Origin: Dyella subtropica
Lineage (GTDB): Bacteria > Pseudomonadota > Gammaproteobacteria > Xanthomonadales > Rhodanobacteraceae
Direction: 5' to 3'
NCBI RefSeq assembly: GCF_026283965.1
Contig: NZ_JAPDPD010000001.1
Coordinates: 124,001 to 188,000 of the forward strand
Length of the DNA: 64,000 nt
In this document: one piece after another, positions 10,956 to 57,985 of the stretch
How the letters are laid out: every line of letters starts with the position of its first letter
Position numbering within the stretch: the first letter of the stretch is position 1
Translations under genes and position numbers: made by a program
Notes under the pieces: generated by a model
What the model saw: the letters and a program-made list of their open reading frames with translations, nothing else
The model's database searches: none
What the model was told of the DNA's origin: nothing

Positions 10956-11028
10956 GGCTTCGACCTGAAGGGCGATGGTGCAAGATTGCCTGTTCCTCTG
11001 AAGCAAGGCGAGCACCGGCCACCAGCTT

Positions 11029-12236: not shown

Positions 12237-13004
12237 TCACGGCTGACCAGCAGCCGCACTCGCCTTCGGCGCATTCCACCCTATCGCGTTGTACACGTGG
12301 TAACGCGCAATACCGACGTACTCATGCAAGGCCGCATCGGCCACGGTGAAGTTCCACGCCACCGGATAGAACGACCACATCGGCGTGACGTAATCGCCGC
12401 GCACCGGCACCGGGTGCAGGCCGAAATGGGCGAAGTACAGCAGGCTACGCCGCAGATGCGTACCAGAGGTCACCAGCAACACGCGCTGCGCAGCGTCCGC
12501 CTCCAGCAAGGGCTTGCTGAACTGGGCGTTCTGCCAGGTGCTGAGGCTGCGTGATTCGACGATCAAGTCCGTAGCCGGAATATCGGCGCGCAGCAACGCG
12601 TCGCGATACACCTCGGCCTCCGGCGCGCCGTGATCCTGGGCGTCGCCTCCGCTGACCAGCACTTTGCAATCGCCACCCGCCGCGCGGCATTCGCGATAGA
12701 GCATCACGGCGGTGAGGATGCGCCCGTTAGCGAAGTAGCTCGGCTCCAGGCGGCCATGCGCCTCGTCACGAAACGTACCGGCACCCAACAATACGATCGC
12801 GCTGCGCGCAGGCCAGTTTGCTGGTGCCGCGCTGGCGTAGTCGCCTTGCAGATCCCGTGACATCCACGACGGCACCGCGCCGCAACCCACACCCCAAAAA
12901 AACAGCAGTGCCAGCGCGTAACAGACACGGCCCAAGCCGCGGCGTTTCAGACGTCCAAGCGCAAACCCCAGCAGCCCCAGCAACACGAACACCAGCAAAG
13001 TCAT
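12237..13004 (-). CDS. YdcF/SanA-family (DUF218) membrane protein
   Basis: This 255-residue protein has two N-terminal hydrophobic segments (about residues 2-17 and 27-46) followed by a DUF218 domain. Typical features are AIVLLGAGTFRDEAHG, an SGGDAQDHGAPEAEVYRD stretch, ESRSLSTWQNAQFS, and VTSGTHLRRSLLYF. Family members such as ElyC and SanA act in the envelope and affect peptidoglycan precursor metabolism; the reaction of most is unknown. The domain would face the periplasm. A GAACGAGG Shine-Dalgarno precedes the start. It is convergent with the alcohol dehydrogenase and stands alone. Confidence 0.88.
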   Translation of the reverse strand: MTLLVFVLLGLLGFALGRLKRRGLGRVCYALALLFFWGVGCGAVPSWMSRDLQGDYASAAPANWPARSAIVLLGAGTFRDEAHGRLEPSYFANGRILTAVMLYRECRAAGGDCKVLVSGGDAQDHGAPEAEVYRDALLRADIPATDLIVESRSLSTWQNAQFSKPLLEADAAQRVLLVTSGTHLRRSLLYFAHFGLHPVPVRGDYVTPMWSFYPVAWNFTVADAALHEYVGIARYHVYNAIGWNAPKASAAAGQP

Positions 13005-13202: not shown

Positions 13203-14631
13203 ATGAGCGCAGTGGATGTCACCCAGGGGTTGGAGCAACGCGCCACAACGCGGGTGGTGCTGATTGCAGCCGCCGCGGCCATCGGCGGGTTTCTTTTCGG
13301 CTTCGATACCGCGGTGATCAACGGCGCAGTGGATGCCGTGCGTGGCAGCTTCGGCCTTGGCGCCGGCCGGATCGGTTTCGCCGTGTCCTGTGTCCTGCGC
13401 CCTGCTCGGCTCCGCGCTAGGCGCCTGGTATGCCGGCCCGCTGGCCGACCGCTGGGGCCGCGTGCGCACGATGCAGGTCGCTGCGGTGTTGCTGGCGTTG
13501 AGTGCGCTGGGTTCCGGACTGGTGTCTGGCGTGTGGGACTTGATCTTATGGCGCGTAGTTGGCGGCATCGGTGTCGGCATGGCTTCGGTGATCGCACCGA
13601 CCTACATCGCCGAAGTATCGCCAGCGCAGGTGCGCGGCCGTCTCGGCTCACTGCAGCAACTGGCCATCGTGCTCGGCATCTTCGCCGCCCTGCTCAGCGA
13701 CGCTTGGCTGGCGAGCACCGCGGGTGGCGCGTCGCAGCCGCTGTGGTTCGGCCTGGCCGCGTGGCGCTGGATGTTTCTGGTCGCCGTGGTCCCTGCCCTG
13801 ATCTATGGCTCCCTGGTGCTGGGCGTGCCGGAGTCGCCGCGCCATCTGGTAGCCAAGGGCCGCTTGGCTGAAGCGAAGGACGTGCTGCGTCAGGTGCTGG
13901 ACCTGCGCGATGAACGCGCACTCGATCACAAACTGGTCGATATCGAGCAGAGCCTGCGCTCCGAATACCGCCCTCGCCTGCGCGATCTGCGCGGCCCGCA
14001 CGCCGGCCTGCTACCCGTGGTGTGGATCGGCATCCTGCTGTCGGTGTTCCAGCAGTTCGTCGGCATCAACGTGATCTTCTACTACTCGTCCACGCTGTGG
14101 CACTCCGTGGGCTTCAGCGAGGCCGATGCGTTCTCGATCACCGTCGCCACCTCGGTCGTGAACGTGCTGGTGACCCTGGTAGCGATTGCACTGGTGGACC
14201 GCATCGGCCGCAAGCCGCTGCTCGTCATCGGCTCGGCCGGCATGGCGATCACTCTGGGCTTGATGGCCTGGTGTTTCTCGCAAGCCACCGGCAACGGCGC
14301 GACGCTTAGCCTGCCGGCACCGTGGGGCATCTTGGCGTTGATCGCGGCGAATGCCTACGTGGTGTTTTTCGGTTTGAGCTGGGGACCGATGGTGTGGGTG
14401 CTGCTGGGGGAGATGTTCCCCAATCGTATTCGCGCGATTGCGCTGGCGGTGGCGGCTTCGGCGCAGTGGCTGGCGAATTTTGCGATCACCAGCAGTTTTC
14501 CGTCGCTGGCGGAGATGGGGTTGAGCTTCGCTTACGGGTTGTATGCGCTGTTTGCGGTGGTGTCGTTGGTGTTTGTGCTTGTCTCTGTGCGCGAGACAAA
14601 GGGCATGGAATTGGAGGATATGAAGGAGTGA
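13203..14631 (+). pseudogene. MFS sugar porter, frameshifted by a 7-bp tandem duplication
   Basis: The frame from ATG 13203 (good GGGGAG Shine-Dalgarno) encodes a sugar-porter N-terminus with GGFLFGFDTAVINGA. The rest of the protein, including LADRWGRVRTM, PESPRHLVAKGR and the sugar-porter C-terminal half, is in another frame. The break falls at a perfect tandem duplication of GTGTCCT (13383-13389 and 13390-13396). Removing one copy restores GFAVSCALLGSALGAW and a continuous protein of about 473 residues. As written, translation leaves the family sequence after residue 64. The product would be a proton-coupled hexose or pentose symporter with 12 membrane helices. No sugar kinase gene is adjacent. 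Confidence 0.9.
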
Positions 14632-15084: not shown

Positions 15085-16521
15085 ATGACCACATTGGTTT
15101 TCGTCCACGGCTGGAGCGTTACCAACACTTCAACCTACGGCGCCCTGCCCCAGCGTCTCCAGCAACAGGCCGTCGCTAGCGGTATGGTGCTTGACGTGGC
15201 CGATCTGTGGCTTTCGGAATACGTCAGTTTCGACGATGCCGTGACGATGGGCGATCTGGTGCGCGCTTTCGATCATGCGCTGCGCGATCTGCACCTGATC
15301 GATGCCAGTTTCGCCTGCGTTACGCATTCCACCGGCGGGCCGGTGGTACGCGAATGGTTACGTGCGCAACGCGAGAAGCCTGGGGCATACAGCACGATCC
15401 GCCTCAGCCATCTGGTGATGCTGGCACCAGCCAATTTCGGCTCAGCGCTCGCCCAGATCGGCAAGAGCGTGCTGGGGCGTATGCGCTCCTGGTGGAATGG
15501 GGTGGAACCGGGTCAGCGGATTCTCGACTGGTTGGCGTTGGGTAGCGCGGCGTCGCTGTCGCTCAATATCGATCACATCCACGGTGGGGATCCCGCGGAT
15601 AAGGGGCAGTTCCTGTTCGTGCTTACCGGCGATCGACCCGATCGCTCGATGTACGACCACATCAACAGCTACACCGGCGAGGACGGTTCGGATGGTGTGG
15701 TGCGCATCGCCGCGGCCAACCTCAATGCTTGCCACGCAGTGTTCACGCGCAAGGCATTCACCGCGAATGGTGACACGCTGTCGCTCAATCTCACGCGTGC
15801 ACCGCGTAGCGCGTTCAAGCTGATTCCCGGCGCGTCACACTCGGGAGATGCGCAAGGCATCATGGCCGCCGCGCCCGCTACTACGGTGGATGCGGTGCTG
15901 CGCTGCCTGCGCGTAGTCGATAGCGCCAGCTACGCGCAGCTGTGTGACGCCTTCGAGGCGGAGAACGCGCAACGCGATGCGGACAAGGTCGAGCTGGAAC
16001 CGGTCGGCCCATTCTCGCCGCGCGTGCATATTCACGATCCGCGCAGCCTGCTGATCGTGCGCCTCACCGACGAAGCTGGCGAAACGTTGCAGGACAGCCG
16101 CTTTCTGCTTTCCGCCGGCACACCGCCGAATCCAGACTGGATGCCGCAAGGCTTCATGCTGGACCGGCAGGCCAACAGCCGTACACCCAACGTGATCTCG
16201 TTCTTCCTCAACCATGCCCTGCTCGCCGGTGACCATCGCGTGGCCGATCCGACCAACAGCCGCAAGACGCTGCGTGCGGCGATCAGCGGCCACCGCCCCT
16301 ACACCGCCAGCGTGCAACCGCTCGACCTGGATGGACTGGTCCATCACGCGTTGGCATCGATGGATACCGGCGACGATCTGTTCACCGCCTGGGGGCCGCA
16401 TCAAACCACCGTGCTCGACGTGGTGCTGCCACGCAAGGTGCACGAGGGTGTATTCCGGTTGACGCAGAAGCTGGCGCCGGAGGATTTCAGCAACCCGGTG
16501 CCCGGGGCAGTCATCGGCTAG
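15085..16521 (+). CDS. Lipase-like alpha/beta-hydrolase of unknown substrate
   Basis: The 478-residue product begins with a hydrolase strand and oxyanion segment, LVFVHGWSV. The likely nucleophile is the Ser in VTHSTGGPVV (about residue 90). A candidate acid lies in EDGSDGVVRIA (about 198) and a candidate His in PGASHSGDAQ (about 252). The HSTGG form and length recall triacylglycerol lipases and PGAP1-like phospholipases. The C-terminal 170 residues look beta-rich and have no motif I recognise. No signal peptide is evident, so it is probably cytoplasmic or exported by a non-classical route. It is a single gene that converges on the EmrB-like gene. Confidence 0.7.
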   Translation: MTTLVFVHGWSVTNTSTYGALPQRLQQQAVASGMVLDVADLWLSEYVSFDDAVTMGDLVRAFDHALRDLHLIDASFACVTHSTGGPVVREWLRAQREKPGAYSTIRLSHLVMLAPANFGSALAQIGKSVLGRMRSWWNGVEPGQRILDWLALGSAASLSLNIDHIHGGDPADKGQFLFVLTGDRPDRSMYDHINSYTGEDGSDGVVRIAAANLNACHAVFTRKAFTANGDTLSLNLTRAPRSAFKLIPGASHSGDAQGIMAAAPATTVDAVLRCLRVVDSASYAQLCDAFEAENAQRDADKVELEPVGPFSPRVHIHDPRSLLIVRLTDEAGETLQDSRFLLSAGTPPNPDWMPQGFMLDRQANSRTPNVISFFLNHALLAGDHRVADPTNSRKTLRAAISGHRPYTASVQPLDLDGLVHHALASMDTGDDLFTAWGPHQTTVLDVVLPRKVHEGVFRLTQKLAPEDFSNPVPGAVIG

Positions 16522-38253: not shown

Positions 38254-39009
38254 TCAGCGACGCGACATCGCCGACGCCAGCACGCGCCAGGCACGCAATT
38301 CGGTGCCGCCGAGATGAAAACGGATGACCTCACGCATCATCGCGCGCAGGGCCGACAGGCCCGCTGGGTCGGGCATGGTGTCCTGCATCAGCGCCAGCAG
38401 ATCGCTGCCGCGCAAGGCATGAGGCAGATCAGGCCGGCATGCGGTGGGGCCGAGTTCCATCTGATAGCGATAGTGCTGTTCGGGAGTGATGTGTTCACCC
38501 GAGTCGCCATCGAACTCAAGTTGCAGGGCATAGCCGATCGCTTCCAGTAGATCGCGTTCGAAACGCCTCAACGTCCATGCCAAAGGTTCTCCACTGGCGA
38601 GTCGCGCCAGGGTTTGCGCATAGGCGTGGAACAGTTCGGGTTGCGGATCCTGCCGCCCCGTGAGCCGCACCACTAGTTCGTTGAGATAGAGGCCGGCCAG
38701 ACCGGCATCGCCCACCAGGCGCTGGGGCGCGCCCACACCCTCGGCCCCTTGCAGCGTGGCCAGTTCGCCACGCAGCAACAGATCCAGCGCCAGTGGCTGG
38801 AAAGGCTCCAGCTGCGCTCGCTGCACACGCGCCCGCTCGCGCCGCACGCCCCGCGCGACCACACCAAGGCGGCCGTGGTCGCGGGTCAGGCATTCCAGCA
38901 ACAGCGACGTCTCCCGATAGGGCCTCGCATGGAGCACGTAAGCGGGTTGCTGTTCGAGGTGCATGCGATGGAGGGCGAAGGCGGAAGCGGCTGAGGTCAG
39001 TACAGCCAC
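38254..39009 (-). CDS. recO: DNA repair protein RecO
   Basis: The 251-residue product matches RecO, which with RecR loads RecA onto SSB-coated single-stranded DNA. The N-terminal OB-fold reads AYVLHARPYRETSLLLECLTRDHGRLGVVARG. The helical part contains GLYLNELVVRL and WTLRRFERDLLEAIGYALQLEFD. The GTG at 39009 has a GGGAAAAG Shine-Dalgarno 19 bp after era; an internal ATG at 38964 would give a more standard 236-residue protein. It is the last gene of the lepA-lepB-rnc-era-recO block. The usual pdxJ is not downstream. Confidence 0.94.
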   Translation of the reverse strand: MAVLTSAASAFALHRMHLEQQPAYVLHARPYRETSLLLECLTRDHGRLGVVARGVRRERARVQRAQLEPFQPLALDLLLRGELATLQGAEGVGAPQRLVGDAGLAGLYLNELVVRLTGRQDPQPELFHAYAQTLARLASGEPLAWTLRRFERDLLEAIGYALQLEFDGDSGEHITPEQHYRYQMELGPTACRPDLPHALRGSDLLALMQDTMPDPAGLSALRAMMREVIRFHLGGTELRAWRVLASAMSRR

Positions 39010-39028
39010 CTTTTCCCGCCGATGGCGA

Positions 39029-39970
39029 TCAGTCGGTGTAGCCGAACTTCTTCAACATGGACTCGTCATCGACCCAGCCCTCGCGCACCTTCACCCACAG
39101 GCGCAGGAACACCTTGCGTTCGAACATGTGCTCCATCTTGCGACGGGCAGAGGTGCCGATGGCCTTGAGTTGAGCGCCGCCGGCGCCGATCACGATGGCC
39201 TTCTGACTATCGCGCTCGACCCAGATCACGGCATGGATCTCGGCCACACCATCCTCGCGGTCCTTGAACTGCTCGATCTCCACCGTGGTGGCGTATGGCA
39301 GCTCCTGATCCAGCCGCAGCATCAGCTGCTCGCGCACCATCTCGGCTGCCAGGAAGCGCTCGCTGCGGTCGGTGATTTCGTCTTCACCGTAGATCGGCGG
39401 CCGCACCGGCAGACGCTTGAGGATGCCCTGCTCCAGCTCCTTCAATCCCTTTTGCTTGAGGGCGCTGACGTAATAGACCTCGTCGAAGCTGTGCTGCTCC
39501 ATCAAGCCGGCGACGAACGGCAGCATGGCCGACTTGTCCTTGGCCAGGTCGACCTTGTTGATCACCAGCAGGCGCGGCACCTTCTGCTCGACCAGCGCTT
39601 CGTACAGCGCCTGGTCTTCGTCGGTCCAGCGGCCGGACTCGATGACCTGTACGGCCAGATCGACCTCGCTGATCGCCGAACGCGCGGCGCGGTTGAGGCT
39701 GCGGTTCATGGCGCGCTTGGCGCCGCGATGCAGGCCTGGCGTATCCACGTACAGGATCTGCCCCGCCTCGCTGGTGGCGATGCCGAGGATGCGATGACGT
39801 GTGGTCTGCGGACGCGGGCTGACGATGGAAAGGCGGAAGCCGATCAGCGCGTTGAGCAAGGTGGACTTGCCCACGTTGGGTCGTCCCAACAGCGCTACCG
39901 GGCCGCAGCGGAAGTCGTCGTGCGGCAGTTCGGCCGGTGCGCCAAGGTCAATGGTGTTGTCGTGATTCAT
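39029..39970 (-). CDS. era: GTPase Era
   Basis: The 313-residue product is the ribosome-assembly GTPase Era, which binds the 3' end of 16S rRNA. The G-motifs are [14 protein letters not shown] (about residue 28), the switch region [19 protein letters not shown] and [10 protein letters not shown]. The C-terminal KH domain includes [28 protein letters not shown]. Its start overlaps the rnc stop by 4 bp, so rnc and era are translationally coupled, as in E. coli. Confidence 0.98.
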
Positions 39971-57883: not shown

Positions 57884-57909
57884 TTCGGGCTCCACAGCAG
57901 TACAGCAGT

Positions 57910-57985
57910 GGGGCCATAGCTCAGCTGGGAGAGCGCCTGCATGGCATGCAGGAGGTCGGCGGTTCGATCCCGCCTGGCTCCACCA
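57910..57985 (+). tRNA. tRNA-Ala (GGC)
   Basis: This is a 76-nt cloverleaf with encoded CCA. The acceptor is GGGGCCA/TGGCTCC, the anticodon loop ATGGCAT gives GGC, and the T-arm is GCGGTTCGATCCCGC. It is the first of three tandem tRNAs sharing one promoter. Confidence 0.97.

Follow-up and report, generated by a model that had tools for sequence, protein, structure and literature searches.

The window analysed here, a stretch of 64,000 nucleotides of the Dyella subtropica genome, carries a sugar porter gene whose coding sequence is divided between two reading frames at a short perfect tandem repeat. The features at and around the locus are as follows.

12237..13004, minus strand: DUF218/ElyC-like neighbour gene
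13203..13388, plus strand: 5' piece of the porter gene (frame 0; 62 codons), holding the N-terminus and first membrane span
13383..13397, plus strand: perfect tandem tract of period 7, GTGTCCT twice plus one base, 15 bp; site of the frame change and of a private gain of 7 bases
13389..13871, plus strand: frame 0 past the repeat, about 159 residues with no likeness to the family, closed by a stop ending at 13871
13396..14631, plus strand: 3' piece of the porter gene (frame +1; 411 codons plus stop), holding the remaining transporter
15085-16521, downstream of the porter: lipase-like protein with a sub-threshold DUF7379 match

The porter has its start codon at 13203, and the family sequence in frame +1 is free of stops until 14631. 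The exact 14-mer formed by the doubled unit, GTGTCCTGTGTCCT, occurs once in the window and was present in none of 100 shuffles. Because the period of the tract runs on for one base (13397), it is ambiguous which of the two copies, left or right, is the added one. A sequence-only reading of this DNA had placed a GTGTCCT tandem precisely where the MFS protein switches frame, and the coordinates bear this out, with frame 0 giving way to frame +1 at 13383-13396. The single open frame across all membrane spans that is expected of a TIGR00879 sugar porter is lacking here, since the frame changes at 13383-13397. Judging from XylE topology, the break presumably lies in the first membrane span or immediately behind it, so that neither piece should give a working porter.

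The 3' piece scored 321.8 bits against TIGR00879 (cut-off 237.8) and 328.4 bits against PF00083 (cut-off 22.3). By these scores it resembles the sugar porter (SP) family of the MFS, from which it differs in a frame that breaks about 62 codons in; on TIGR00879, L003, an intact relative, reaches 360.2 bits. The 5' piece alone scored no Pfam family, and its matches to XylE and sugar porter models (E 2.9e-7 and 2.4e-5) were both below the cut-offs. The nearest solved structures for the 3' piece are XylE-type D-xylose-proton symporters of E. coli (E 8.7e-69). Glucose or xylose had been suggested as the substrate, a proposal that the scores of the intact relatives L003 and L016 do not establish: both pass the sugar-porter cut-off but remain far under the equivalog cut-offs of XylE (NF007484; 359.4 and 364.5 bits against 608) and GlcP (NF052357; 258.1 and 262.5 bits against 750).

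The flanks pin down no sugar pathway, and the gene neighbourhood was set aside as a guide to the substrate. In the short flanks compared, the DUF218/ElyC-like gene adjoins the porter in five of five genus mates, an alcohol dehydrogenase gene is likewise common to five of five, a relative of the lipase-like protein lies near the porter in three of five, and an AraC gene in two of five. None of these neighbours was shared by the short flanks of 21 named loci outside this set, one of which has a 30% ALDH match, and L016 and L020 differ in their porter neighbours. The genome holds one further sugar porter above the TIGR00879 cut-off, L096 on contig C23, which is intact (444.9 bits) and comes after a gene read as SMP-30/gluconolactonase-like. 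With this second sugar porter gene intact, the phenotype of the break is not predictable.

Relatives at the join

A family-wide search of 117 genomes found some match to the porter in 110. Loci matching the 3' piece at 50% or more numbered 88, three of which are the window's own locus; in all of the remaining 85 the N-terminal part shares its frame with the C-terminal part. Among the matches listed, the 46 that reach 71% identity and are not the window's own all have open frames of 477 aa or more, compared with 437 aa in the window. The nearest named relatives of the porter belong to Dyella, Rhodanobacter, Frateuria and Lysobacter.

The 26 nearest loci (L003-L007 and L016-L036; five genus mates and 21 named contigs) are 75-93% identical to the window in the 3' piece. 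When aligned to the unchanged window sequence, every one of them shows a run of seven gap bases at the repeat. The net length difference is 7 in 25 of these loci and 6 in L033, where BLAST puts one further base elsewhere. Identity to the nearest relative, L003, is 88.7% in the 5' piece and 93.2% in the 3' piece. The earlier suggestion that the extra copy is what separates this gene from intact family members is supported by the 7-base gaps, and the lesion is private to one lineage while the relatives are intact, as in a recent pseudogene.

Two loci from these comparisons deserve mention in their own right. L034, labelled Tolypothrix campylonemoides, a cyanobacterium, has a porter 77% identical to that of the window and groups among Lysobacterales sequences; it is probably a contaminant contig in the Tolypothrix campylonemoides assembly. 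In genus mate G003 the orthologous porter (L156; G003:C1 near 2162666) carries a private extra 9-bp unit, CTGCGCGAC, relative to three other genomes, and this expansion is in frame and leaves the open frame intact. Taken with the duplication in the window porter, it points to tandem copying in the same gene in two lineages.

Selection on the two pieces

The 5' and 3' pieces were kept separate and compared codon by codon with seven relatives. Against L003, the 60 codons compared in the 5' piece gave a dN/dS of 0.101 and the 411 codons of the 3' piece one of 0.063; values against the remaining six relatives ranged from 0.049 to 0.170. Changes were also divided between the window lineage and the L003 lineage with four outgroups, giving nonsynonymous to synonymous counts of 9.5:69.5 and 10:56, respectively, with L004, 7:47 and 8.5:68.5 with L016, 11:62 and 6.5:57.5 with L017, and 12:66 and 8.5:57.5 with L006. 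With two of the four outgroups, L017 and L006, the nonsynonymous share is slightly greater in the window lineage than in the L003 lineage, a difference too small for calling relaxation. Across the dN/dS values and the four outgroups there is no clear sign of relaxed selection on the porter pieces.

As the two pieces still show signs of selection at the protein level, the lesion would be recent. On these codon comparisons the porter appears to have been under selection until very recently, or else would still be selected, with the assembly wrong. Of the possibilities raised in the sequence-only reading, recent inactivation is supported by these values and by the whole frames of the relatives.

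Short tandems and the assembly

The draft genome totals 4.95 Mb in 46 contigs, with a completeness of 99.96% and a contamination of 0.02%; the window is part of its contig C11, which is 581,938 bases long. A count over 448 kb of C11 gave 29 perfect 7-bp tandems, 7 of them inside the window, where a 5th-order Markov model predicts 44.8 for the same 448 kb (mean of five simulations); genus mate G004 has 26 in 400 kb. A 7-bp tandem is by itself unremarkable, and the one in the porter is notable only as absent in close relatives and coincident with the break.

Perfect tandems were compared reciprocally among four genomes. The 848 kb covered in the window's genome held 1569 perfect tandems, 823 of which were alignable to genus mates, with four private length changes. 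Private exact tandems of all units amount to 4 of 823 here and 9 of 2827 in three genus mates (p 0.51); for units of at least 7 bp the counts are 3 of 62 and 1 of 198 (p 0.043, or 0.14 without the porter tandem). The porter tandem is the sole one of the four seen to break a gene, with the tandem on contig C33 judged by unit length only. That tandem, the fourth, is a 6-bp pair whose unit keeps the frame.

The other two private tandems are both exact 8-bp duplications. At 57894-57909 ACAGCAGT occurs twice, abutting tRNA-Ala (57910-57985) on its upstream side; the unit is single in the two genus mates that could be aligned there, and the tandem may affect the leader or promoter spacing of tRNA-Ala. 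Outside the window, at G000:C11:395922-395938 (in L143), GTTTTTAA occurs twice immediately upstream of a gene start, presumably that of rpsO, and the second unit is missing from two genus mates. The presence of three private 7-8 bp tandems within one contig raised the idea of a duplication-prone genome, which was rejected given that, with more sequence, there is no excess over all units and that the one for units of at least 7 is marginal. The window's genome is not clearly set apart by its private tandems.

Genes of three genus mates were placed on 448 kb of the contig, with 48 testable from G004, 128 from G003 and 109 from G001; a single own gene could be tested by several genus-mate genes. 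This gave 12 split candidates (two from G004, six from G003 and four from G001), two of which are the porter. Seven others, followed frame by frame, read as neighbouring genes or a leader before a normal gene start and not as broken genes. One candidate of the 12, at 10958-10973 in the window, extends by its coordinates into the alcohol dehydrogenase gene on the opposite strand. A separate candidate at 38970-39032, additional to the 12, lies antisense to genes that look recO- and era-like. The last two of the 12 have antisense overlaps of 98% and 71%. Setting aside this strongly antisense pair, the candidates inspected in the 448 kb yielded no further clean split inside a gene. In the reverse comparisons, split candidates were listed in the genus mates too. 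Generally poor assembly was rejected as the cause, as the candidates inspected read as neighbouring genes, normal starts or antisense overlaps, with the porter the one gene seen to be broken.

The main rival to a true lesion is a local assembly or consensus error, with one unit in the strain and two written in the assembly. The genome is a draft, such an error would likewise leave selection on both pieces undisturbed, and private tandems with units of at least 7 are somewhat commoner here than in the genus mates at the p values given above. Against it, the tract lies deep in a long contig of a genome with high completeness and little contamination, no further clean gene split was found among the tested contig genes, and private exact tandems over all units are not in excess. 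To our knowledge, 7-bp copies are not the usual kind of consensus error. We regard an error of this kind as unlikely, though a good deal more plausible than the switch or the still-working gene considered below, and infer that the lesion is carried by the strain itself.

Probable loss of function and alternative readings

A doubled unit coincides with the frame change, is absent in close relatives, and lies in a coding sequence that is otherwise open and constrained. We consider this quite probably a recent loss of function, caused in this one genome by a frame-breaking 7-bp tandem duplication. Seven bases close to the beginning of the porter would have been copied twice as the DNA was replicated, a short tandem duplication of the putative slipped-strand type. 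Since seven is not a multiple of three, the family frame would be lost in translation, which would exit it inside the first membrane span or shortly past it and stop about 159 residues on, at 13871. A complete porter would not be obtainable from such reading, and a working product is not expected. A gene intact in relatives and broken here is a known kind of event, and the porter looks like an ordinary recent pseudogene. It shares with pseudogenes made by short frame-shifting tandem duplication the private exact duplication, the intact relatives and the unharmed remainder of the gene, and shows no marked difference from them; it would be very young, with neither a second lesion nor relaxed selection. 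We recognised no published description of the porter lesion in the literature, a negative of little weight.

An on/off switch had also been proposed, in which loss and gain of the 7-bp unit would turn the porter on and off across the population. The tandem is perfect, its unit length is no multiple of three and it lies near the 5' end of the gene, which speaks for such a switch. Sugar porters are not known as typical phase-variable surface genes. Work on repeat switches names as the critical step a repeat number unexpected from composition alone (PMC11868660); here there are two units only, and 7-bp tandems, common in this genome, number fewer than composition predicts. Nor did the unit number vary among the 26 nearest loci, all without the extra unit, these being relatives and not isolates of the same species, and all 85 relatives read through the join unbroken. 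With close relatives lacking the unit and 7-bp tandems of two units being common, phase variation was rejected as the leading reading, and we think a switch very improbable.

One parallel is icaC of S. aureus, where a short tandem unit shifts the frame of a coding gene reversibly and the change does not need RecA (PMC4117637). The icaC variants described there have four to six tetranucleotide units and differ among isolates (PMC4117637), whereas the porter has two units and no variation was seen among its relatives. Reversion of icaC is put at about once per 45,000 cell divisions in the same source (PMC4117637), and silenced S. aureus resistance genes are reported to regain resistance at 1e-4 to 1e-10 (PMC6819657). 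Tandem duplications of 26-116 bp are reported among spontaneous mutations of Xenorhabdus lrp, in a paper that has a section headed as not reversible (PMC6786866). These figures come from other tracts, and no rate is therefore claimed for the GTGTCCT tract. Equally improbable is a mixed strain population that would use the two-unit repeat, too short for repeat scanners, as a low-rate switch for metabolic bet-hedging.

Least likely of all is a gene that still works, by frameshift re-phasing or by internal restart at the ATG at 13333, which is in the downstream frame and precedes the 3' piece: no relative needs either device (85 of 85 in one frame), the 432-residue restart product would be without the conserved first span, and by eye no frameshift signal was seen near the repeat.

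With recent loss of function as the preferred explanation, the porter would be annotated as one disrupted gene in the Dyella subtropica genome rather than as two genes. A frame change that coincides with a perfect short tandem does not by itself indicate a switch; relatives have to be compared, and the tandems of the genome concerned counted, before one is judged. Should reads over the tract prove mixed, the porter would become a small case of metabolic phase variation.
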